Shown here: positions 1 through 10,201 of the stretch, piece after piece
Position numbering within the stretch: position 1 is the stretch's first letter
Layout of the letters: each line of letters begins with the position of its first letter
NCBI GenBank assembly: GCA_946554525.1
Contig: CAMNSE010000005.1
Location: 1 to 64,000, forward strand
DNA: 64,000 nt
Source of the DNA: an uncultured Mycoplasma sp.
Lineage (GTDB): Bacteria; Bacillota_I; Bacilli_A; RF39; UBA660
Reading direction: 5' to 3'
The notes under the pieces: model-generated
The model's input: the letters and a program-made list of their open reading frames with translations, nothing else
Databases searched by the model: none
Told to the model about the DNA's origin: nothing
Program-made: the position numbers and the translations under genes

Positions 1-61
1 AAAGTTTTAAAAATTCATAAAAAGTACTTGATTTATATTAGCAAGTTTGTAGAGGTGTTGT

Positions 62-565
62 ATGAAAAAGAAAATAATTATAATTTCAGTAGTAATAATT
101 TTAGTAGTTTTATTATTTCCAATTAGAAATCAACTAAAAGATGGTGGCACAGTAGAATATAAAGCATTAGTTTATAAAGTGTCTAAGGTTCATAAGCGTT
201 CAGAAACATACCATGAAGATGGCATTAAAATTGAAATTCTAGGGAAAGAACTATTTAACAATGTTAAGGCTAAACTTATTGAAAAAGATCCACCATTTAG
301 TGAAGAAAAATTGGGTAATATGGCATTAGAATACTTTTTTAAAACTACACCAGAGTGGACTCTAGATCCAAATGCATCAAAAGATGAATATCATCTTGGT
401 ATGGCTTATGATATAGAAAAATATCAAAAGCAAGATATGGTTGTTATTGAGATTAGGCATATACATAACAATATTAACAATACTTTAGATGCAAGATATT
501 ATATAAATATCTATACTGCAAAAGGGTTTGATGATTCAGGAAATGAAATAGATTTAAACTTATAA
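62..565 (+). CDS. Small membrane-anchored or secreted hypothetical protein
   Basis: A 167-residue protein with an N-terminal Lys-rich start followed by a hydrophobic segment at about residues 4-22, which is a signal anchor or signal peptide. The rest is hydrophilic and begins with a run around residues 25-45 (LKDGG, then YKALVYKV). From memory this resembles small proteins found in many Firmicutes without assigned function. There is no lipobox cysteine. The start is ATG behind a modest AGAGGTG ribosome site, unlike the ATA-start genes further right. Its function is unknown. Confidence 0.7.
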   Translation: MKKKIIIISVVIILVVLLFPIRNQLKDGGTVEYKALVYKVSKVHKRSETYHEDGIKIEILGKELFNNVKAKLIEKDPPFSEEKLGNMALEYFFKTTPEWTLDPNASKDEYHLGMAYDIEKYQKQDMVVIEIRHIHNNINNTLDARYYINIYTAKGFDDSGNEIDLNL

Positions 566-567
566 TT

Positions 568-580
568 ACAAATTACAAGT
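568..580 (+). repeat. 13-bp direct repeat, copy 1
   Basis: ACAAATTACAAGT occurs two bases after the stop of the membrane-protein gene and again at 1141-1153 right at the stop of the ankyrin-like gene. The meaning is unknown. It could be a remnant of gene or module duplication. Confidence 0.6.
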
Positions 581-598
581 TGAAAGTGAGATGAGAAT

Positions 599-1141
599 AT
601 GGGATTTGATTTAGGACATACAATTAGTTCGTTATCAAAACTTGCATTACGAACTAAAAGAAAAAATGAGAAAATTGAATATGAAAAAAAGAAAAAAGCA
701 GCAAGTGAAATTATTGATTCTGTTCTTAATCAATTTAAGGATAAAGAGAGTTTTCTTGAAACTTTAGATAAATCTGGAAGAGATATGATTAGTTATATGA
801 TCTCTCACGAAGATGAAGAAAAAACTTTAAAAGTATTAGAAATCATAGAAGATGTTAATAAAGAAGATAAACTTGGAAATGCGTATCTTACTATTGCTTG
901 TTTAGAACATAAAGTAAAAGTTATTGAAAAATTGCTTGACATGGGTGCTAATCCAAATCATAAAACTAATCCTTTACTTAAAGCATTAGGAAGAAGAAAT
1001 AAAGAAAATCCTGCAATATTAGAATTATTTGTAAAGTATGGTGTAAATCTAAAAATGAATATTCAAGGGAATACTTTAGAAGAAATAATCCGTTCATTTG
1101 AAGATGATAACCTTAATAAAATTTTAGATACAGCAAAATAA
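599..1141 (+). CDS. Ankyrin-repeat-like protein
   Basis: A 180-residue protein. The N-terminal third is charged and helical. The C-terminal half (about residues 95-175) contains ankyrin-type signatures: a LxxACLEHKVKVIEKLLDMGANPN unit (in two parts, residues about 98-122) followed by a second unit around LELFVKYGVNLKMN. Ankyrin repeats mediate protein-protein binding, and the partner is unknown. It starts with ATG after GTGAG. It lies 33 nt after the preceding gene, so the two are probably co-transcribed. The same 13-mer ACAAATTACAAGT follows the stop codon of both genes. Confidence 0.7.
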   Translation: MGFDLGHTISSLSKLALRTKRKNEKIEYEKKKKAASEIIDSVLNQFKDKESFLETLDKSGRDMISYMISHEDEEKTLKVLEIIEDVNKEDKLGNAYLTIACLEHKVKVIEKLLDMGANPNHKTNPLLKALGRRNKENPAILELFVKYGVNLKMNIQGNTLEEIIRSFEDDNLNKILDTAK

Positions 1142-1153
1142 CAAATTACAAGT
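1141..1153 (+). repeat. 13-bp direct repeat, copy 2
   Basis: Second exact copy of ACAAATTACAAGT (first at 568-580), again at the 3' edge of a gene. Confidence 0.6.
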
Positions 1154-1194
1154 ATACTTTAAGATGTAAATAATTTAATATTTATATCTTATTT

Positions 1195-1390
1195 TTTTAT
1201 GTTAAATTATTTACCAAGAGTTTAAGTGAGAACGGCAAATTACAGAGGTCATAGAATCTAACAAATTGACAGTTCAGCTTTTATTTCTATTATTAATTTA
1301 GTTTAAGATAGTGAGGTCGTAGAATCTATATAACAAGCTTGATGAAATAATGGTGGAAACAAGAGACTTAAATTCAGAAAGGAGTAAATA
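1195..1390 (+). ncRNA. Candidate bridge-RNA region of the IS110 element
   Basis: About 200 nt of non-coding DNA precedes the transposase. In IS110-group elements this 5' flank is known to encode the bridge RNA that pairs with target and donor DNA. Two near-identical 16-mers (GAGGTCATAGAATCTA at 1245 and GAGGTCGTAGAATCTA at 1313, one mismatch, 68 bp apart) are each preceded by GTTTAAG (1220 and 1301). Two similar internal loops are what a bridge RNA would show. I have not folded it, and the exact limits are unknown. Confidence 0.4.
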
Positions 1391-2593
1391 ATGAAATCAG
1401 TATTAAGTGTTGATGTAGCTAAAGGAAAAAGTATGATAATGTTATCTACTGAATATGGAGAAGTATTGATTGAACCTAAAGAGATAAAACATAATTTTCG
1501 TGATTTTAATGAATTAAAAGATAAAATTGAAAGTTTTAATTTAGAAGATTTAACTATTTTCATGGAATCAACAGGAATATATCATTTGCCAGTAGAAAGA
1601 TATTTTAAAGAAAATAATTTTAATACATTAGTAATTAATAGTTTAACGACCAAAAATAATTATGATACATTAAGGAAAACAAAAACTGATACAAAAGATT
1701 GTATGAGATTAGCTAAATTATTTTTCGTAAATGAAGTAGAATATCATGATTTGTCTAAAAAAGATTTATATGCTAATTTGAAAGCAATGACAAGACAATA
1801 TTTTTATCTAACTCAATTAAATGTGAGTTGTAAAAATAGATATAAAAGACTTATAAATATATGTTTTCCAGAATTTGAAGAAATATTTAAAGGCAGCAGA
1901 ATATATGAAGAAACAGCATTAAACTTTATTAAAACCTTTCCTCATGCTTATATAGTAAAAGAAAAAAGAATAGATGCATTATACAATAATTTGTATAAAA
2001 CTAATTCTAGACATGATTATTATTATAAGAGGTTAGCAAACAAAATCAAAGATATAGCAGTTAATTCATATCCAGGTGTCGATAAAGATCATTCGGATGT
2101 AAAGAACTTATCTGATATGGCTGCTATTTTACAAGAGAATATTAAGACAATAAATGAATTAAAAGAAAAGATGATAAAAACTGCAAAAGAGTCACCTTAC
2201 TTCGATATAATTAATTCTTTTTACGGGATAGGAGAAGTATTAACAACCGAATTATTAGGTGAATTAGGTGATATAACAAGATTTGATAATCATAGACAAT
2301 TAATTGCTTTCTGTGGTTTAGATCCAACAATAATTCAATCTGGGAAAAGTATAAACGTGCATGGAACTATTTCTAAACGTGGAAATAAATATGCAAGATG
2401 GATATTATTTAATATTAGTCAAATAGTAGTTAAGTTAGGGCATCAATGTCCTGGACACCCCGTATATGATTATTATTTAACAAAAAAAGCAGAAGGTAAA
2501 CATTATTATGAAAACCTAACTGCTTGCTCTACAAAAATATTAAGAATGTTATATACAATGTGCAAAAATAATACAACATTCAAAATAAATTAA
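1391..2593 (+). CDS. IS110-family transposase (DEDD recombinase)
   Basis: A 400-residue protein of usual family length. The N-terminal RuvC-like DEDD domain shows D8 (VLSVD), E59 (MESTGIYH), D100 and D103 (TDTKD). The C-terminal transposase_20 domain (about residues 275-360) starts with a helix-hairpin-helix-like FYGIGEVLTTELLGELGD stretch. It contains a QSGKS motif with the serine expected to be catalytic in this family, then SKRGNKYAR. It catalyses RNA-guided or site-specific recombination of the element. It starts with ATG after AGAAAGGAG. The gene appears intact. Confidence 0.95.
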   Translation: MKSVLSVDVAKGKSMIMLSTEYGEVLIEPKEIKHNFRDFNELKDKIESFNLEDLTIFMESTGIYHLPVERYFKENNFNTLVINSLTTKNNYDTLRKTKTDTKDCMRLAKLFFVNEVEYHDLSKKDLYANLKAMTRQYFYLTQLNVSCKNRYKRLINICFPEFEEIFKGSRIYEETALNFIKTFPHAYIVKEKRIDALYNNLYKTNSRHDYYYKRLANKIKDIAVNSYPGVDKDHSDVKNLSDMAAILQENIKTINELKEKMIKTAKESPYFDIINSFYGIGEVLTTELLGELGDITRFDNHRQLIAFCGLDPTIIQSGKSINVHGTISKRGNKYARWILFNISQIVVKLGHQCPGHPVYDYYLTKKAEGKHYYENLTACSTKILRMLYTMCKNNTTFKIN

Positions 2594-2766: not shown

Positions 2767-2785
2767 AGGAGGGATTTTTTAGATA
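2767..2785 (+). promoter_or_regulatory. Strong SD with ATA start, gene 2783-3628
   Basis: AGGAGG at 2767-2772, then 10 nt, then ATA at 2783-2785. An in-frame TAG at 2780-2782 directly precedes the ATA. The next ordinary start in frame is TTG at 2801, 28 nt from the SD. Confidence 0.65.
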
Positions 2786-3628
2786 AGTAATATAGATTTT
2801 TTGAATATGTTTTTATCTGCTAAAGATATTGAGGGGTGTTCAGATAGAACAATTAAATATTATAAAGATATAATTTTAAAGTTAATTAACTATATAAAGA
2901 AACCTATAAAAGAAATAACAACTGATGATATTCGATTATATTTATCTCAATATAAAGAAGAAAGTAATTGTAATTCTGTAACTATGGATAATATAAGAAG
3001 AGTGTTTTCAAGTTTCTTTGCTTGGCTAGAAGATGAAGATTATATTTTGAAAAGTCCTGTTAGAAGAATACATAGAGTTAAGACAGCTGTTGTTGTAAAA
3101 GAAACATTGTCAGATGAAAGTATAGAAAAATTAAGAGATAATTGTACTCATGTTAGAGAATTAGCAATAATTGAATTATTAATTTCTACTGGTATGAGAA
3201 TTGGTGAGTTAGTTAATTTAAATATTGATGATGTAAATTTTGAAGATAGATCATGCATTGTTTTAGGTAAAGGAAATAAACAGCGTGAAGTCTATTTTGA
3301 TGCGAGAACAAAAATTCACTTACAACAATATTTAAACTTGAGAACCGATGATTCAAATGTTCTTTTTGTTTCTAAAATAAAACCTGTCCATAGAATAACA
3401 ATATCTGCTGTTGAAAGTATTGTTAGAAATATGGGAAATAAGCTCAATATTAAAAAAGTGCATCCACATAAATTTAGAAGAACAATGGCAACTATGGCTA
3501 TTGATAAGGGGATGCCAATAGAACAAGTTCAAAAATTATTAGGACACACGAAAATTGATACAACCATGCATTACGCAATGGTTAATCAATCTAATGTGAA
3601 ATTTTCACACAGAAAATATATAAGTTAA
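2783..3628 (+). CDS. XerC/D-like tyrosine recombinase (ATA start)
   Basis: 281 residues from the proposed ATA. The N-terminal SAM-like core-binding domain (about residues 7-90) contains IEGCSDRTIKYYK. The catalytic domain has all expected residues: R139 in TGMRIGEL, Lys in GKGNKQREV, the HPHKFRRT box, LLGHTKIDTT and the tyrosine in MHYAM. It catalyses site-specific strand exchange. From memory, relatives carry a few residues before the FLSAK-IEGCS segment, which supports starting upstream of the TTG at 2801. First gene of the cargo operon. It is separate from the att-adjacent integrase at 8331, so the element has two tyrosine recombinases. Confidence 0.88.
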   Translation: MSNIDFLNMFLSAKDIEGCSDRTIKYYKDIILKLINYIKKPIKEITTDDIRLYLSQYKEESNCNSVTMDNIRRVFSSFFAWLEDEDYILKSPVRRIHRVKTAVVVKETLSDESIEKLRDNCTHVRELAIIELLISTGMRIGELVNLNIDDVNFEDRSCIVLGKGNKQREVYFDARTKIHLQQYLNLRTDDSNVLFVSKIKPVHRITISAVESIVRNMGNKLNIKKVHPHKFRRTMATMAIDKGMPIEQVQKLLGHTKIDTTMHYAMVNQSNVKFSHRKYIS

Positions 3629-3643
3629 GGAGGAAATTTTATA
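3628..3643 (+). promoter_or_regulatory. SD with ATA start, gene 3641-3886
   Basis: AGGAGG (3628-3633) overlaps the TAA stop of the recombinase gene. After 7 nt comes ATA at 3641-3643. The first in-frame ATG lies 45 nt further on. Confidence 0.7.
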
Positions 3644-3886
3644 GAAAAAAATAATGAAATTGCATTAAAATCAGGATATTATTTTATGATATTTAAAAAA
3701 GATGATATTCCTTTTTTTAATGAATTAGAAAAAACAAATAAAGTAGTTCGTAAGGATGATATAGAATACAATGTTTATACAGCTCCTACTTGGGAAATTG
3801 CTCAAAAAGTAGATGCTTTTATGGGTAATAATGATTTAGGATATGACATTGATGATTATTTAGTAAATAAAGATATTAATATATAG
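3641..3886 (+). CDS. Small cargo protein, unknown function (ATA start)
   Basis: 81 residues if started at ATA; starting at the first ATG (3686) would remove the first 15. I do not recognise a family. It is acidic and mainly soluble, with no membrane segment, and ends in NKDINI. Its TAG stop is embedded in the next gene's SD (TAGGAGG), so translation is tightly coupled to the gene at 3898. Confidence 0.7.
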   Translation: MEKNNEIALKSGYYFMIFKKDDIPFFNELEKTNKVVRKDDIEYNVYTAPTWEIAQKVDAFMGNNDLGYDIDDYLVNKDINI

Positions 3887-3900
3887 GAGGAATTAAAATA
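3885..3900 (+). promoter_or_regulatory. SD with ATA start, gene 3898-4491
   Basis: AGGAGG (3885-3890), 7 nt, then ATA-GAG at 3898. The SD includes the AG of the preceding TAG stop. No ATG, GTG or TTG lies within the usable distance, and the first in-frame alternative is TTG at 3979. Confidence 0.75.
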
Positions 3901-4491
3901 GAGAAAAATCAAAAAAATTACATAGAAAATATTGTTAATCATTATAATAATTTAAAACGAACAATAACAATAGAAGAATTGCAAACGCTCTATTCAACTA
4001 TGTATCCTGATTCTAAAATAAAATTAAATAAAGAAGATTGGGCTATATGTAGTATAGACATTGAAAATAACAATAGTCAAAGAGTTTGTGATTATTTAGA
4101 AAAAGTAAGTAATCGGATTAACATTAATAAAACAAGTAGTTTAGTAACAAGTGAAATGTTTATCAATTGTTTATTAAAAGATTTACAACCATATCACAAA
4201 GAGATATATGGAAATATTGAACCTTTTTGTGATGGTCGAGAACAAGGATTAATGCTCTCGTTATATAATCAGTTAACAGATGATCAGTTTTATATTTGGG
4301 CTTGCGAATCCAAAACAGATAAAGATTTAATGATTCTAACATCTAAAGAAAAAAATAATCAAAACCTTTATATGCAGGATGATTTAGAAAAAGCCCAATA
4401 TTTTAGTAAAAATAATTTGGAAGATGCTCTTTCCTATTCTCTTTCACAGATTAACAAGTTTTTAGGAAAAGAATTAAGTATTGGAATATAG
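3898..4491 (+). CDS. Cargo protein of the 'REQG...IWAC' paralogue family, member 1 (ATA start)
   Basis: 197 residues from ATA, against 170 if the internal TTG at 3979 were used. The C-terminal half shares a block with the products at 4503 and 7598: GREQGLML, then a FYIWACES segment and a following hydrophobic strand (DLMIL). The N-terminal part looks like an unrelated helical region. The function is unknown. I would treat this as an element-specific small domain family. It ends in LSIGI, and its TAG stop overlaps the next SD. Confidence 0.75.
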   Translation: MEKNQKNYIENIVNHYNNLKRTITIEELQTLYSTMYPDSKIKLNKEDWAICSIDIENNNSQRVCDYLEKVSNRININKTSSLVTSEMFINCLLKDLQPYHKEIYGNIEPFCDGREQGLMLSLYNQLTDDQFYIWACESKTDKDLMILTSKEKNNQNLYMQDDLEKAQYFSKNNLEDALSYSLSQINKFLGKELSIGI

Positions 4492-4505
4492 GAGGAATTA
4501 GTATA
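4490..4505 (+). promoter_or_regulatory. SD with ATA start, gene 4503-5216
   Basis: AGGAGG (4490-4495), 7 nt, ATA at 4503. The preceding TAG stop overlaps the SD. The first in-frame ATG is 135 nt downstream, which would remove 45 residues including part of the conserved block. Confidence 0.78.
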
Positions 4506-5216
4506 GAATTTAAAAAAAATAATAGTTTAATTGTTAGTGAAACATTTTTTGAAAAATTAGAGAAACAACTTGAAAATGCATCGGATAATTTATCAGGTTA
4601 TTATAAAACATTTAATAATTGCCGAGAACAAGGATTAATGCTCGAAATTTATGATAATGTACATGATAGCGAATTACTTATATGGGCTTGTGAATGTCGT
4701 AATAGTGATAACATAATGGTTGTGATAGCCGATAAATCCTGTTCAGATATTAATGATATGTTTGATGATAAAGCTTGGAAATCAGCTAAATATTTTGGTG
4801 TAGGTAATTATGATAAGGCAGTTAATTATACTTATAATGTTATAAAAAAGCAATTTGATAAAAATTTCAAAGAAGAATATAATACTAAATTTAAAATGCA
4901 TAAGTGTCTTGCTGATTTACAAAGAATTGCGTTAGACTCTAACGAATTAAATTATGAAGATTATTACGATCTAGCGACTTTTGAAAATGTAGATCAACTT
5001 TATTTTTGTGATCTTATTATTATGGATGGTAAATTAGGATTAAGATATTCAAAATATAGTGATTCGTATTGCGAAGAATTTGATAACTTAACTTTTGAAG
5101 AGTGGGAACCAGATCTATCTAGTAATATGACATTAATGTTAGGTATGCAAGAAAGATTAAATAATTTTATTGAAAAAGAAATAGATTATGAACTTACAGT
5201 TGGAATGGGTGTTTAG
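4503..5216 (+). CDS. Cargo protein of the 'REQG...IWAC' paralogue family, member 2 (ATA start)
   Basis: 237 residues from ATA. Residues about 39-75 (NNCREQGLMLEIYDN, then LLIWACECRNSDNIMVV) match the block in the products at 3898 and 7598. The conserved CREQG begins before the first in-frame ATG (4638), so an ATG start would cut the domain. This is strong evidence for the upstream ATA. The C-terminal region (about 110-237) is acidic and unrelated to the paralogues. It ends in TVGMGV. The function is unknown. Confidence 0.8.
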   Translation: MEFKKNNSLIVSETFFEKLEKQLENASDNLSGYYKTFNNCREQGLMLEIYDNVHDSELLIWACECRNSDNIMVVIADKSCSDINDMFDDKAWKSAKYFGVGNYDKAVNYTYNVIKKQFDKNFKEEYNTKFKMHKCLADLQRIALDSNELNYEDYYDLATFENVDQLYFCDLIIMDGKLGLRYSKYSDSYCEEFDNLTFEEWEPDLSSNMTLMLGMQERLNNFIEKEIDYELTVGMGV

Positions 5217-5218
5217 TT

Positions 5219-5662
5219 ATGTTTGAGAAAATAAGAGAAGATTATGATAAAGAATATAATGATGCATTAAATAAAACAGGATTATTTTGGGCTTTTGACC
5301 AAAAGCAATTTGATGAAAATAAAACACATAAAGATGCCCCTGACAATGAATATATTACTATTGGTGATGGTGGCTATTTACATAAATCTAATAAAACAAA
5401 ATTTGATAATTTTTTTAAGAATATAGCTCCAAAATTAAAAGCAGATTTTATTTGTAAAATAAATATTGATGATTTAATAAAATATGAACTAAATAATTAT
5501 GAGGCATATTATATTGGTGATTATACTCAAGTTATAATTGCTGTTAAGAGCTATTATCAAGATTTATCAATAGAAGAAATTACAAAAAAAGTGAAAAATA
5601 TTTATGAAATGGAAATAGATAGAATTTCAAATGACTATGATGATGGAAATATTGGAATATAG
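5219..5662 (+). CDS. Cargo protein, unknown function
   Basis: 147 residues, starting with ATG two bases after the previous stop without a strong SD of its own, so it is probably translated by coupling. It contains a FWAFDQKQFDEN motif near residues 23-34, reminiscent from memory of small phage and plasmid proteins with a similar FFAF-QF-E motif. No catalytic motif is evident. It ends in GNIGI, and its TAG stop overlaps the next AGGAGG. Confidence 0.7.
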   Translation: MFEKIREDYDKEYNDALNKTGLFWAFDQKQFDENKTHKDAPDNEYITIGDGGYLHKSNKTKFDNFFKNIAPKLKADFICKINIDDLIKYELNNYEAYYIGDYTQVIIAVKSYYQDLSIEEITKKVKNIYEMEIDRISNDYDDGNIGI

Positions 5663-5677
5663 GAGGAATATTTAATA
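5661..5677 (+). promoter_or_regulatory. SD with ATA start, gene 5675-6715
   Basis: AGGAGG (5661-5666), 8 nt, ATA at 5675, followed by a second ATA at 5678. The first in-frame ATG (5951) lies 276 nt downstream, inside the conserved ArdC-type domain. Confidence 0.82.
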
Positions 5678-6715
5678 ATACAAGATAAAATAAAAGAAAT
5701 TGCAGAAATAAGTTTTAAAGCAAAAAATTTAAAAGATGAAAAGGAAAAGGAAAAACTAGATAATGAAGTTAAGCGTATTTTAACAGATCTAAAAAAACAA
5801 GCTATTGATAGCTTTAAAGATGAGTCTGATCTTAAAAGATTTTTAGATAATATTATCAACTTTAATAACTACTCTTTTAATAATCAATGTTTAATATGGC
5901 TACAAAATCCTGATGCTAGATATGTAGCATCATTCAAAACTTTTTCTAAAATGGGTTATAAAATAAACAAGGATGAAACAGGTATGAAAATACTTATACC
6001 ATCCTTTTTAAGATTTGCTAAAGTTAATAAAGAAGATGGTACTTTTGATATTAAGCCACTTTATATGTTAAATGAAGAAGAATTGAAAAAGTATAAAGAC
6101 AAAACAGATGAGTCAGTTTCATTTTATAAAGAAAAAGTAACTAACTTTGGAGTTGGTACTGTCTTTGATGCAAGTCAAACCGATATGCCTTTGGATGCTA
6201 TTGAAGAAGAATTAAATCCTGTTTTAGAAGATCCGAAAGCAGATGGTGTTGCTGATACTTTCATTAAAGCTATATATAAAGATGGATTTAAGGTTAAGTA
6301 TGAAGAAATAAAGGATGGAGCTAAAGGCTATTGCGATTTTGATACCAATACTATTGTAATCAGAAAAGGATTAAGTAACTTGATGAGATTAAAGGTTATT
6401 GTCCACGAATATGCTCATGGTTTAGCCCATCAACATTTAAAAGATAACAATAAAGAATATAGAGATCATAGGAATCAATATGAGACAGAGGCAGAGTCTA
6501 TTGCTTATGTCGTTTCAAAATATTTAGGTTTGGATACAAAGGATTATTCTCAAATGTATCTTTATTCTTGGAGTAAAGAAAAAGACTTTAAAGAAATTGA
6601 GGATTCTTTTAATACAATAGTTAATTATTCTAAAAAAATTATTAGTAATTATAACAAAATGTACGATGAACATCTTGGATTATGGGCAGATGATTATAAG
6701 GAATTAAAAGTATGA
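5675..6715 (+). CDS. ArdC-like antirestriction protein with HExxH metalloprotease motif (ATA start)
   Basis: 346 residues from ATA. The N-terminal part (about 1-130) is an ArdC-type single-strand-DNA-binding domain: NNYSFNNQCLIWLQNP, then FKTFSKMGY and GMKILIP. Half of it would be lost with the first ATG. The C-terminal part (about 195-300) has a zinc-peptidase VHEYAHGLAH motif (HExxH) and a downstream TEAESIAYVV glutamate box, as in IrrE/ImmA-like peptidases. ArdC-type proteins protect incoming plasmid or ICE DNA from host restriction. TGA stop overlapping the next ATG. Confidence 0.85.
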   Translation: MIQDKIKEIAEISFKAKNLKDEKEKEKLDNEVKRILTDLKKQAIDSFKDESDLKRFLDNIINFNNYSFNNQCLIWLQNPDARYVASFKTFSKMGYKINKDETGMKILIPSFLRFAKVNKEDGTFDIKPLYMLNEEELKKYKDKTDESVSFYKEKVTNFGVGTVFDASQTDMPLDAIEEELNPVLEDPKADGVADTFIKAIYKDGFKVKYEEIKDGAKGYCDFDTNTIVIRKGLSNLMRLKVIVHEYAHGLAHQHLKDNNKEYRDHRNQYETEAESIAYVVSKYLGLDTKDYSQMYLYSWSKEKDFKEIEDSFNTIVNYSKKIISNYNKMYDEHLGLWADDYKELKV

Positions 6716-6870
6716 AAGCAACTAAATTTAAATGGAAATGGATTAAATTTTGGGGACATCGTTATTTGATGATTTCCCCAAGTAATTTAAAAATACAATA
6801 TATCTTATATCATCGTAGAATTTTTAATATTGATGAGTGGGATAAACATTTTAAGGAGGATTTTAAATAG
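6712..6870 (+). CDS. Short basic hypothetical protein (52 aa)
   Basis: ATG at 6712 overlaps the ArdC gene's TGA as ATGA. The product is basic and aromatic (KFKWKWIKFWGHRY, then YHRRIFNIDEWDKHFKE). Its TAG stop at 6868-6870 overlaps the next gene's ATA start (ATAG). It has no recognised family. The perfect coupling on both sides argues it is real. Confidence 0.65.
   Translation: MKATKFKWKWIKFWGHRYLMISPSNLKIQYILYHRRIFNIDEWDKHFKEDFK
6853..6869 (+). promoter_or_regulatory. SD with ATA start, gene 6867-7601
   Basis: AAGGAGG (6853-6859) lies inside the short upstream gene. Seven nt later comes ATA at 6867, overlapping that gene's TAG stop. The first in-frame ATG is 48 nt downstream at 6915. Confidence 0.75.
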
Positions 6871-7601
6871 AAAACAAAATATTTATAAATAGTGTCGTAG
6901 AATACTTAAATTTAATGGAAGAAAATTTAGATATTATTAAATTAACAAAATTATATTCTAAAATTCATAATCCAAAAGTGGATGTTGAGTTTTCAAATGA
7001 TGAAGTTCAAGAGTTCAACAATTACATTCATAATAAAGATGTTTCTTCTATTGTTAAACTTTTTGAGTCAAAAGAAAATATTGCTTGGGAAGTTTTAAAA
7101 GACATAATTCACGAAAAAACAGAAGGCTTATGGCAATTTGTTATGGATAATGCTTATGATAAATGGAAATCTAGTGAAATGAGTCGAGAGGATTTTTTAA
7201 ATCAACTAACTGATTATGAAAAATTGGCTGTAATGTTTGGCAACTTTAATTATCAAGTGGAAAATGGAGGCTTGTATCAATGGCATGATAATAGTTATAG
7301 CGAGGATTTAGGCTCTTTATACGACTTTTTAGATAATTGTGATTATGATAAAAAAGATAAGTTTATGCAAGTCCTTGATGATTTCTCTTATGTAAAAACA
7401 GCTATAGAGGAGTTAGATCCTAATAATGATTGGTACAATGAAGATTGTCAAACAAGATTCGAAACATTAAAGTATTATGATAAAGATTATTATTCTATTC
7501 AAGATGGTTGGAAGAATTATTTTGAAAATTATTTGATTACTAATATACCTGATGAATATGTGCAGATGATATATCAATTAGAAAGGAATATTAATGTATG
7601 A
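6867..7601 (+). CDS. DUF4375/DMP19-like protein (ATA start)
   Basis: 244 residues from ATA. The central segment (about 110-150) has the family-like pattern LAVMFGNFNYQVENGGLYQ(W), that is E-V-x-NGG followed by Q and an aromatic. The protein is strongly acidic. Some members of this family (DMP19) are DNA mimics that bind a repressor. An acidic DNA-mimic role would fit next to ArdC, but that is inference from a motif. Ends in ERNINV. The TGA stop overlaps the ATG of the next gene. Confidence 0.65.
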   Translation: MENKIFINSVVEYLNLMEENLDIIKLTKLYSKIHNPKVDVEFSNDEVQEFNNYIHNKDVSSIVKLFESKENIAWEVLKDIIHEKTEGLWQFVMDNAYDKWKSSEMSREDFLNQLTDYEKLAVMFGNFNYQVENGGLYQWHDNSYSEDLGSLYDFLDNCDYDKKDKFMQVLDDFSYVKTAIEELDPNNDWYNEDCQTRFETLKYYDKDYYSIQDGWKNYFENYLITNIPDEYVQMIYQLERNINV

Positions 7602-7999
7602 TAGTATGGAATGAAAAAGTTAAAAAAAGTGAAGATGTAATAAAAGCAGTAATTAATCAATTATACAAAGATCAAATTAATACTGATGGTGTTGTTGAAA
7701 TTTTTAATAATGGAAAAGAACAAGGTTGCGTATTAAAGTTGTTCGATAAATATAATCCTAATCTTGATTTATGCATTTGGGCTTATTTGCCAAATAATCG
7801 GAAAATGAATAATCATATGGAAATTATTATTGGTAAACATATAAATTGTAACAATCTCAATATGTGGGATGGTGCTGATTTGGAGTCGTTTTCTTTTGAA
7901 GATGCTAAAGCTAGAGAAATGCATAATAATGCAAGAGATTTTATTATAGAAATAATAACAAAAAATTTAGAGAAAACTTATGATATTTCTAGATTGTGA
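7598..7999 (+). CDS. Cargo protein of the 'REQG...IWAC' paralogue family, member 3
   Basis: 133 residues. Residues about 33-70 (NNGKEQGCVLKLFD, then LDLCIWAYLPNN and MEIIIGKH) align with the shared block in the products at 3898 and 4503. It starts with ATG overlapping the upstream TGA (ATGA), so it needs no independent SD. No known function. It is the shortest member and shows the conserved block nearly alone. Confidence 0.72.
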   Translation: MIVWNEKVKKSEDVIKAVINQLYKDQINTDGVVEIFNNGKEQGCVLKLFDKYNPNLDLCIWAYLPNNRKMNNHMEIIIGKHINCNNLNMWDGADLESFSFEDAKAREMHNNARDFIIEIITKNLEKTYDISRL

Positions 8000-8003
8000 T
8001 GTT

Positions 8004-8019
8004 GGAGGGGTGATAAATA
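8004..8019 (+). promoter_or_regulatory. SD with ATA start, gene 8017-8334
   Basis: GGAGG (8004-8008), 8 nt including an in-frame TAA, then ATA at 8017. The only nearby ordinary start in frame is TTG at 8038, 29 nt from the SD. Confidence 0.7.
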
Positions 8020-8334
8020 GATAATAAGAGATTATCCTTGGGTGATTTACTATTAGAAATAGGTAAATTAGTAAAAGAATATGAAGATGGAGTTTCGGTG
8101 GAAAAAACAAAAGAAGAAGATCTTTATAGTATAAATCAAGTTATAGATTTATATCCTATGTTGTCAAAACATATCTTAACTAATGCAATAAACAATAGTG
8201 AATTAAAAGTGACATGGATTGGCAATAAAAGATATTTTAATTTAAGCGATATCGATGATTACTTACAAAAAAAACAAGATAAAGTTGTTAATGATATTCC
8301 TGAAAAACTTGAAAGTTGGAGGAATAAAGCATAG
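8017..8334 (+). CDS. Excisionase-like helix-turn-helix protein (ATA start)
   Basis: 105 residues from ATA. The C-terminal half (about 35-90) resembles excisionase or MerR-like winged HTH domains: LYSINQVIDLYP for the first helices, a TWIGNKRYF wing and LSDIDDYL. It lies directly upstream of the integrase and overlaps it. That is the usual place for a recombination directionality factor that promotes excision. The exact family is uncertain. Confidence 0.7.
   Translation: MDNKRLSLGDLLLEIGKLVKEYEDGVSVEKTKEEDLYSINQVIDLYPMLSKHILTNAINNSELKVTWIGNKRYFNLSDIDDYLQKKQDKVVNDIPEKLESWRNKA
8318..8333 (+). promoter_or_regulatory. SD with ATA start overlapping a TAG stop, integrase gene
   Basis: GGAGG (8318-8322), 8 nt, ATA at 8331-8333, sharing bases with the excisionase gene's TAG (ATAG). 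This is the direct counterpart of the common ATGA overlap. The first in-frame ATG is 204 nt downstream. Confidence 0.82.
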
Positions 8335-9911
8335 CAAAACTTTTAAGCAAAAAAGTAGTTGATCGTTTTTCTATTTCTTATAGTGAGGCAAAACGATTAG
8401 GGATTACAGATGAAGATTTAAAATATATTACTGAATTAAGCCCTACAGATTTTAGAATTTCGATTCCTGCTTTTGATAAAAGAAGAACAAAGCTAGTTCA
8501 TGAATTATTAGAAGCTATAAGAATAAAGTATGAGATGCTTGATCAGATTGATAAGGATCAAAAGGAAATTAAAGAAAAAGAAGAAACTTTAAAGGATTCT
8601 AGAGGGAAAGTCACTAAATATAGTTTGGTAAGAGATGGTGTAGAACTTTATTTGAAAGAAAGAAAAAAGGATCACGATAGAGAGTTTATCCAAGTATCTA
8701 CCTATGAAAATGATATTTATGACTTTCAAAATAGTAAGTATCTTTCTGATTATGGTATTTTTGATGTTCCTATAAATGAAATTGATGATGATTATGCACA
8801 AGGCTTTGTTGATTACTTATGGGATCGTACTGCTACTAGAGGTAAAAATAAAGGTAAAAGATTATCAGAGAATACCATTTATAAACCTTTTTCTTTTGTG
8901 CATAAACTTTTTAATTATTTTAAGGATGATTTAAAAATAATTACAAGTAATCCATTTGATAATGTAAAAAGAAAACCCCATGCAGTTGCTGAAGATAAGG
9001 AATACTTTACTGATGAAGAAATGCATTATATAAAGGATAAATTAGAGTTTGAAAATATTAGATTCAAGACTTTAATTACTTTTATGATGGATATGGGATG
9101 TCGTAGAGAAGAAGCTCTTGCTATCAAATGGAGTGATCTTAATTGGTTTAGAGGTACTGTCAGTATTGAAAGGGCTTTTGTTAAATCTAAAATTGATAAT
9201 AGATATATAATTAAACCTGTAAAACGAAAGAAAAGTGAAAGAGAAATCATTTGTACAAGTTATGTATTAGAATTATTGAAGAACTATAAGAAATTCAAAG
9301 AAGCGTGTGGTTTTGTAGTAAATGATGATGATTTCGTTTTTACAGCATGGGATAGTATGGACATTGTAGATCCTGATCGTTATACTAGAGAATTCAAATT
9401 GTTTATTCAAAAAATTGGATTAAAAAAAGATGTTCCTTTGAAAAATATGAGAGCAACAAATACTTCTTTCTATGTTGCTCGTGGTAAAAATTTAAAAGCT
9501 ATACAAAACAGAGTTGGTCATGAAAATATCGAGACCACTCTAACATATTATGCTCAAGCAAATTATAATGAGGATAAAAAGTTAGTTCAATTATATGAAG
9601 AAGAGTTTTATAATAAACTTGGTTTAACGATGGCTGATTTATATCGTATAGTCACTAATCGTTTTACAGATAATAAAAAATTGGTTAGTGTATTAGAAAA
9701 AATTGGGGATGAGTTTATTGATGATTCTAATTATGATATCCAATTAGAAAGATGTCAGAATTACTTCAGGGAGTTATTTCCTATTTTCGATAAAATTATA
9801 AAGATTGATTCATTATTAGATGATGATGAAATTGATCACATCTTTGAGGGATTCCAAGCTCTATATCATACTATAAAAATTGATGTTTTAGAGCCAAGAA
9901 TTAAAATATAA
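8331..9911 (+). CDS. int: Tyrosine integrase of the element (ATA start)
   Basis: 526 residues from ATA. The N-terminal arm-binding region (about 1-100) is followed by a core-binding SAM-like domain and a catalytic domain. Visible catalytic residues are R in MGCRREEAL, R in the LKNMRATNTS box (the usual His of HxxR appears as Lys), H in VGHENIETT and the tyrosine in LTYYAQ. A C-terminal extension of about 110 residues follows. It sits about 240 bp from the tRNA-Trp fragment. It would integrate and excise the element there. Confidence 0.9.
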   Translation: MAKLLSKKVVDRFSISYSEAKRLGITDEDLKYITELSPTDFRISIPAFDKRRTKLVHELLEAIRIKYEMLDQIDKDQKEIKEKEETLKDSRGKVTKYSLVRDGVELYLKERKKDHDREFIQVSTYENDIYDFQNSKYLSDYGIFDVPINEIDDDYAQGFVDYLWDRTATRGKNKGKRLSENTIYKPFSFVHKLFNYFKDDLKIITSNPFDNVKRKPHAVAEDKEYFTDEEMHYIKDKLEFENIRFKTLITFMMDMGCRREEALAIKWSDLNWFRGTVSIERAFVKSKIDNRYIIKPVKRKKSEREIICTSYVLELLKNYKKFKEACGFVVNDDDFVFTAWDSMDIVDPDRYTREFKLFIQKIGLKKDVPLKNMRATNTSFYVARGKNLKAIQNRVGHENIETTLTYYAQANYNEDKKLVQLYEEEFYNKLGLTMADLYRIVTNRFTDNKKLVSVLEKIGDEFIDDSNYDIQLERCQNYFRELFPIFDKIIKIDSLLDDDEIDHIFEGFQALYHTIKIDVLEPRIKI

Positions 9912-10008: not shown

Positions 10009-10148
10009 TGCTTAAACTAATGTGAATTATTTTTAATTATTTTTAATTTTTAATGAATTAAAATTGATTAAAAGTAATTGACTAAATGCCATATTTTCCT
10101 GTATAATTAGGTTATTAGGAGCAAATGCAGAGGGTGGTCGATTTACAC

Positions 10149-10191
10149 TCCAAAACTTTTGATGGGAGTTCGATTCTCTCCGCCCCTGCCA
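10149..10191 (+). other. attR-like site: 3' half of tRNA-Trp
   Basis: From the anticodon loop (CTCCAAA, Trp CCA) to a 3' CCA end this is a good tRNA-Trp 3' half. It has the 3' anticodon strand, the T-arm GGGAG-TTCGATT-CTCTC, the acceptor strand CGCCCCT, discriminator G and encoded CCA. The DNA to the left does not pair with it, so no whole tRNA is present. It therefore marks the element boundary, and the reconstituted tRNA-Trp should lie at the other end, left of the window. Confidence 0.85.
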
Positions 10192-10201
10192 AGTGAGTAT
10201 T

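Follow-up and report, generated by a model that had tools for sequence, protein, structure and literature searches.

Near-cognate AUA start codons, shared with infC, in a putative integrative conjugative element family of small-genome Bacilli

ATA codons behind strong Shine-Dalgarno sites

Can the genes of a mobile element start at ATA, and if so, what would such a start do? The question is raised by a partial integrative element, of which the right-hand part occupies positions 2783 to 9911 of the stretch analysed here (the window: 64,000 nucleotides, positions 1 to 64,000 of contig CAMNSE010000005.1, or C5, in the 1.13-Mb assembly GCA_946554525.1 of an uncultured Mycoplasma sp.; the contig starts at window base 1). 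A first-pass annotation had proposed that eight of its genes begin at ATA behind strong Shine-Dalgarno (SD) sites. We found genuine initiation at AUA to be well supported by comparison of homologous elements. The best explanation is probably that the element belongs to the MobL-type integrative conjugative elements (ICEs) of one family of small-genome Bacilli, and that these would use start codons discriminated against by initiation factor 3 (IF3) in most of their genes.

All eight ATA codons lie where they had been annotated, at 2783, 3641, 3898, 4503, 5675, 6867, 8017 and 8331. The reported range of SD spacings, 7 to 10 nt, held as well, with a slightly different order across the genes: we measured 10 nt at 2783, 7 nt at 3641, 3898, 4503 and 6867, and 8 nt at 5675, 8017 and 8331, the site being AGGAGG in front of the first six genes and GGAGG in front of the last two. 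The distance from each ATA to the next in-frame ATG, GTG or TTG agreed with the annotated range of 18 to 276 nt (18 nt for 2783, 45 for 3641, 81 for 3898, 135 for 4503, 276 for 5675, 48 for 6867, 21 for 8017, and 204 for 8331). An ATA 7 or 8 nt behind GGAGG is found at 49 of 657 such sites in the host genome (7.5%), compared with 7 of 8 here (P ~1e-7), and the pattern in the element is therefore not due to chance.

The element genes that begin with ATG (5219, 6712 and 7598) are without a GGAGG site, and each is placed for coupling to an upstream ATA gene. Two of the ATA starts, 6867 and 8331, overlap the preceding stop codon in the form ATAG, a near-cognate version of ATGA. Reading of ATAG as a four-base codon was ruled out, since the conserved frame runs on with ATA read as three bases. 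Nor do we claim that a G at +4 is a required signal; it occurs at 31 of 64 ATA sites, at several of them due to overlap with an upstream TAG. As a separate observation, an in-frame ATG precedes several near-cognate starts by two codons; it lies only 1 to 2 nt behind the SD, too close for normal use (L023:1500, L137 [VirD4], L135 [ArdC], and u893 and u12869 of the G61 element).

Conservation of the ATA starts

Are these codons true starts? The first-pass annotation had asked whether homologous elements conserve ATA or have ATG in its place, and both turned out to be the case at the same column: most homologues have ATA, and others have ATG, TTG, ATT, or ATC. The integrase gene (int) starts at ATA in five loci (the window, L021, L022, L023, and L026) and at ATG in L024, L025, and L124. 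For the ArdC gene, non-redundant elements gave ATA in 11 cases and TTG in 2, and eight aligned virD4 genes with a called SD started at ATA (5), ATT (2) or ATC (1), never at ATG. In ortholog pairs in which one member starts at ATA, the partner was also ATA in 286 of 387 pairs, or in 286 of 309 if the partner was any ATH codon (ATA, ATT or ATC), these being pairs that share ancestry and whose counts are not independent. In the comparison set, an internal ATA at a conserved isoleucine stayed ATA in 1015 of 2256 cases.

From ATA to the first canonical start, dN/dS was mostly 0.04 to 0.5, and invariant residues of the integrase fall within this interval. The first canonical codons lie 135 to 276 nt inside conserved domains in the 4503 gene, int and the ArdC gene, and 228 nt inside the VirB4 gene. 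Comparison at this level establishes where the starts lie, that they are coding, and that they are conserved.

Element genes compared with host genes and infC

We applied one rule to all genes with a strong SD, in elements and host alike. Among 16 related elements, 77 of 110 such genes started at ATA, ATT, or ATC (67, 7, and 3, respectively) and 33 at canonical codons, whereas the host had 337 canonical starts and 22 others (P = 2e-41; part of this contrast is inflated because the start caller demands an SD before it accepts a near-cognate codon). On inspection, almost all of the 22 host cases were internal GGAG sites. TTG and GTG were uncommon in the elements, with 7 cases versus 77 for the ATH codons.

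The host scan was genome-wide (1.13 Mb; 1,170 open reading frames [ORFs] of at least 60 amino acids) and ruled out a general leniency of the host toward near-cognate starts. Under stricter conditions, the only clear near-cognate start was the ATA of infC, the gene for IF3. The first-pass statement that no such start was noticed in the host genes (roughly 65 of them) needs infC as an exception, which that annotation had missed. A doubtful second host case (L089:11459-12235) has ATT behind AGGAGG and an ATG 15 to 18 nt downstream.

In all 56 relatives with a readable infC start (loci L143-L172 and L185-L212), the codon was ATA (26), ATT (16) or ATC (14) and never ATG, GTG or TTG; most of these starts follow a GGAGG-type site. 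The start-codon class of the element is therefore common to the host IF3 gene and, as far as we have seen, to almost nothing else, a restriction established by the same comparison. So is the enrichment of an extended SD motif as defined in PMC13009471, which was present at 50 of 64 ATA sites versus 79 of 251 host ATG sites (P = 2e-11); element ATG sites had it in 13 of 32 cases. The element genes resemble infC in carrying a codon other than AUG, GUG or UUG at a conserved N terminus and a strong or extended SD at the proper spacing.

A model based on discrimination by IF3

When initiation complexes form on any codon but AUG, GUG or UUG, IF3 destabilizes them, and infC is held down in this way (PMC5472188, PMC9410913). 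It also represses the GTC start of Streptomyces sigR behind AGGAGGTG (PMC5472188). In Staphylococcus aureus, infC, ccpN, and citZ start at AUA and cvfC1 at AUU; reporters put AUA and AUU starts at ∼10 to 30% of the AUG yield, and the near-cognate sites have an extended SD of the AGGNAT type (PMC13009471).

We propose, as the probable explanation of the pattern, that the elements make family-wide use of IF3-discriminated start codons read by normal fMet-tRNA, giving low and IF3-dependent translation. Most element genes with their own ribosome-binding site would begin at AUA, less often at AUU or AUC, and the ordinary fMet-tRNA (anticodon CAU) would read these codons with a mismatch at the third position. 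The strong extended SD helix would hold the mismatched complex in place, and IF3, by discriminating against near-cognate codons, would hold translation of the element to a fraction of that from AUG, under the same control that limits host infC. In the window copy, coupling of the ATG genes to an upstream ATA gene would impose the low output operon by operon. The branch of the first-pass annotation that proposed deliberate low expression is supported by this comparison of starts. The weak codon varies between homologues and GTG and TTG are rare, so selection seems to act on weak initiation that is sensitive to IF3, not on a particular codon. What we infer from the pattern is that the yield is low, that it depends on IF3, and that it may rise when IF3 becomes scarce.

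A further step, which we regard as tentative and rather doubtful, is that the AUA starts form a translational switch that responds to the IF3 level of the host, with the SD-bearing operons forming one regulon with infC. With plentiful IF3, the genes for integration, anti-restriction and transfer would then be repressed; a fall in IF3 per ribosome would raise them together, as might occur during stress, when growth stops, or shortly after arrival in a new cell.

Could the weak starts instead fix a low yield once and for all, with IF3 never acting as a signal? Such static dosage control of potentially costly proteins (recombinases, ArdC, VirB4 and VirD4) is a serious contender, if one that we would put somewhat below an even chance. 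The weak codon drifts among ATA, ATT, ATC, TTG and sometimes ATG at fixed gene positions, as if strength were selected, and the AUA and AUU reporters in S. aureus show constitutively reduced yield (PMC13009471). However, TTG and GTG, the weak options that are insensitive to IF3, are rare in the elements; the infC genes of all relatives use the same codon class; and a strong extended SD combined with a weak codon is the layout of infC and sigR.

Several observations weigh against discrimination by IF3 as a complete account. ATA is preferred over ATT (67 to 7), which IF3 discrimination alone does not explain. The starts at 2783 and 8017 have canonical codons 18 to 24 nt downstream and are less certain than the others. 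In a distant integrase lineage (G008, G222, and G247; 39 to 42% identity) ATG or GTG is used and no ATA, and the trait is therefore not universal among relatives. To these may be added the shared ancestry of the ortholog pairs and the bias of the start caller, both mentioned above, and the fact that the hosts are uncultured, so that the case is one of sequence comparison.

Decoding machinery and the remaining alternatives

Might the element bring its own means of reading AUA? The first-pass annotation had suggested a dedicated factor, such as an initiator tRNA with a UAU anticodon or an IF variant; a protein that modifies the tRNA or an IF would be another form of the same idea, in which AUA initiation becomes efficient. 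ATA does outnumber ATT plus ATC, and several conserved element proteins are without known function. Searches of the host assembly and of 24 element loci revealed no UAU initiator tRNA and no IF3 paralogue: the host has a single infC, and in the element loci no IF3 match or other decoding factor was found. The remaining host machinery is likewise ordinary, with one initiator tRNA, which has a CAT anticodon, three G-C pairs and C1:A72, an ordinary anti-SD (GGATCACCTCCTTT), and TilS for the normal decoding of AUA as isoleucine. ATG also replaces ATA in the same column of some homologues, and the predicted fold of one conserved element protein family (that of the 7598 gene, described below) has no significant match. 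These data make a dedicated factor very unlikely, and this part of the earlier proposal was not borne out.

Translation from a downstream ATG or TTG, with the ATA codons not being starts at all, is more improbable still. It has in its favor a canonical codon 18 to 48 nt past 2783, 8017 and 6867; however, the downstream codons mostly lack an SD and differ among homologues, the codons that would be left untranslated are under purifying selection, and the first canonical codon falls within a conserved domain in the 4503, int and ArdC genes and 228 nt inside the VirB4 gene. Equally improbable is a non-adaptive origin, either by decay of ATG starts to ATA once the element was inactive or with the ATA codons as assembly errors: the window copy is indeed partial, with the transfer module of this family (VirB4, relaxase and VirD4) missing from the assembly, but a great number of independent assemblies have ATA, the start codon is better conserved than ATA codons inside the genes, and purifying selection acts on reading frames that are still open. 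Comparison already shows selection keeping ATA in intact, active relatives.

Relation to known systems

The preferred explanation, weak initiation under IF3 discrimination, is a known mechanism applied on a new scale. The closest likeness is to infC autoregulation through AUU, AUA, or AUC, which shares the codon class, the strong extended SD and the lack of a canonical start; infC, however, is one housekeeping gene under negative feedback, whereas in the elements most SD-bearing genes are involved and feedback on IF3 is not known. sigR has a non-canonical start behind its extended AGGAGGTG site, and differs in being a single chromosomal gene with a GTC codon whose repression by IF3 was demonstrated experimentally. 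With S. aureus ccpN, citZ, and cvfC1, the elements share a Gram-positive host, AUA starts and AGGNAT-type extended SDs; those are isolated chromosomal genes with no element-wide pattern. A near-cognate start in a mobile element is known from the AUU initiation of IS911 (Polard 1991, Prere 2011, both among the references of PMC4066793), which concerns one gene and is combined with -1 frameshifting.

We found no report of AUA starts in ICEs in the literature searched. Near-cognate starts are known for a few single genes (infC, sigR, ccpN, IS911), and their use by a whole conjugative-element family appears to be new. This mobile-element family, present in several host genera, applies them to most of its genes, and its hosts share them only in infC, a pattern that points to the fidelity of initiation as one level at which mobile elements may be controlled. 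In practical terms, a gene caller limited to ATG, GTG, and TTG would truncate ArdC, integrase, VirB4, and VirD4, since the first canonical codon can lie up to 276 nt inside the gene.

Gene content and integration site of the element

To the left of the ICE remnant (window positions 1 to 2593) are two ATG genes, one of them ankyrin-like, and an IS110-family transposase gene (1391 to 2593). The element genes all lie on the forward strand. The first encodes a tyrosine recombinase like XerA/XerC (2783 to 3628); its start is the least secure of all, with TTG at +18 and ATG at +24, although the G61 element has ATA in this column too. It is followed by an 81-amino-acid protein without an assigned function (3641 to 3886; homologues start at ATA, TTG or ATG), a 197-amino-acid protein with a REQG motif (3898 to 4491; phrog_6319), and a 237-amino-acid protein with a CREQG motif (4503 to 5216; ATA in 8 and ATC in 1 of the non-redundant homologues). 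A DUF7659 protein gene (5219 to 5662) begins at ATG 2 nt past the 4503 stop; in other elements, this gene has ATA behind a strong SD.

The next gene (5675 to 6715) encodes an ArdC-like anti-restriction protein with an ArdC N-terminal domain and an M78-type metallopeptidase domain. The ATG of a 52-amino-acid ORF (6712 to 6870) overlaps the ArdC stop as ATGA, and its own TAG overlaps the ATA of a DMP19-like protein gene (6867 to 7601; weak Pfam match). A 133-amino-acid protein with an NGKEQG motif (7598 to 7999) begins at an ATG that again overlaps the previous stop as ATGA, and its 12 non-redundant homologues with a called SD also have ATG. The last two genes encode an excisionase-like HTH_17 protein (8017 to 8334) and a tyrosine integrase of 526 amino acids (8331 to 9911).

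Behind int, the displaced 3' half of a tRNA-Trp(CCA) (10148 to 10193, forward strand; from the anticodon loop CTCCAAAAC to CCCCTGCCA) marks the integrase-side attachment site. The same motif, CTCCAAAAC...CCCCTGCCA, follows int in 7 elements, and the host assembly has an intact tRNA-Trp at G000:C22. From the sequences at 10148 to 10193 of the window, at L023:11818 and at L022:6606, the elements are read as integrating into the anticodon loop of tRNA-Trp (CTCCAAAAC) and leaving the displaced 3' half at their integrase end.

An integrase, an Xis-like protein and an attachment site, all hallmarks of ICEs, are thus present in the window. VirB4, relaxase and VirD4 genes of this element family were not found in the window's own assembly, in which the contig starts at window base 1. 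The homologous elements come from metagenome-assembled genomes of uncultured Bacilli, Tenericutes or Bacillota, and one of them, CAMNRN010000005.1, carries VirB4, a MobL relaxase and VirD4, which argues that the family is conjugative. Together, the relatives resemble MobL-type Gram-positive ICEs in having a relaxase, VirB4, VirD4, an ArdC-like protein, an Xis-like helix-turn-helix protein, an integrase and a tRNA attachment site. Integrase and ArdC queries gave no relatives in IMG/VR.

Three paralogous element proteins (3898 to 4491, 4503 to 5216, and 7598 to 7999) have an [RK]EQG block in common. AlphaFold modeled the 7598 family with confidence as an alpha-beta fold (predicted local distance difference test, 89.5), with no significant match among PDB or viral folds; the model of the 4503 protein was weaker (predicted template modeling score, 0.50). 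In the chromosomes, nearly all same-family genomes compared encode a VirD4-like coupling protein (G000:C4:54016-55614, L242) with 33 to 38% identity to the ICE VirD4, and no ATA start was seen for it in these genomes. The host also has a VirB4-like protein (G000:C1, L028:10604-12951), and the two proteins may be part of a type IV secretion-like system that is core to this family of bacteria.

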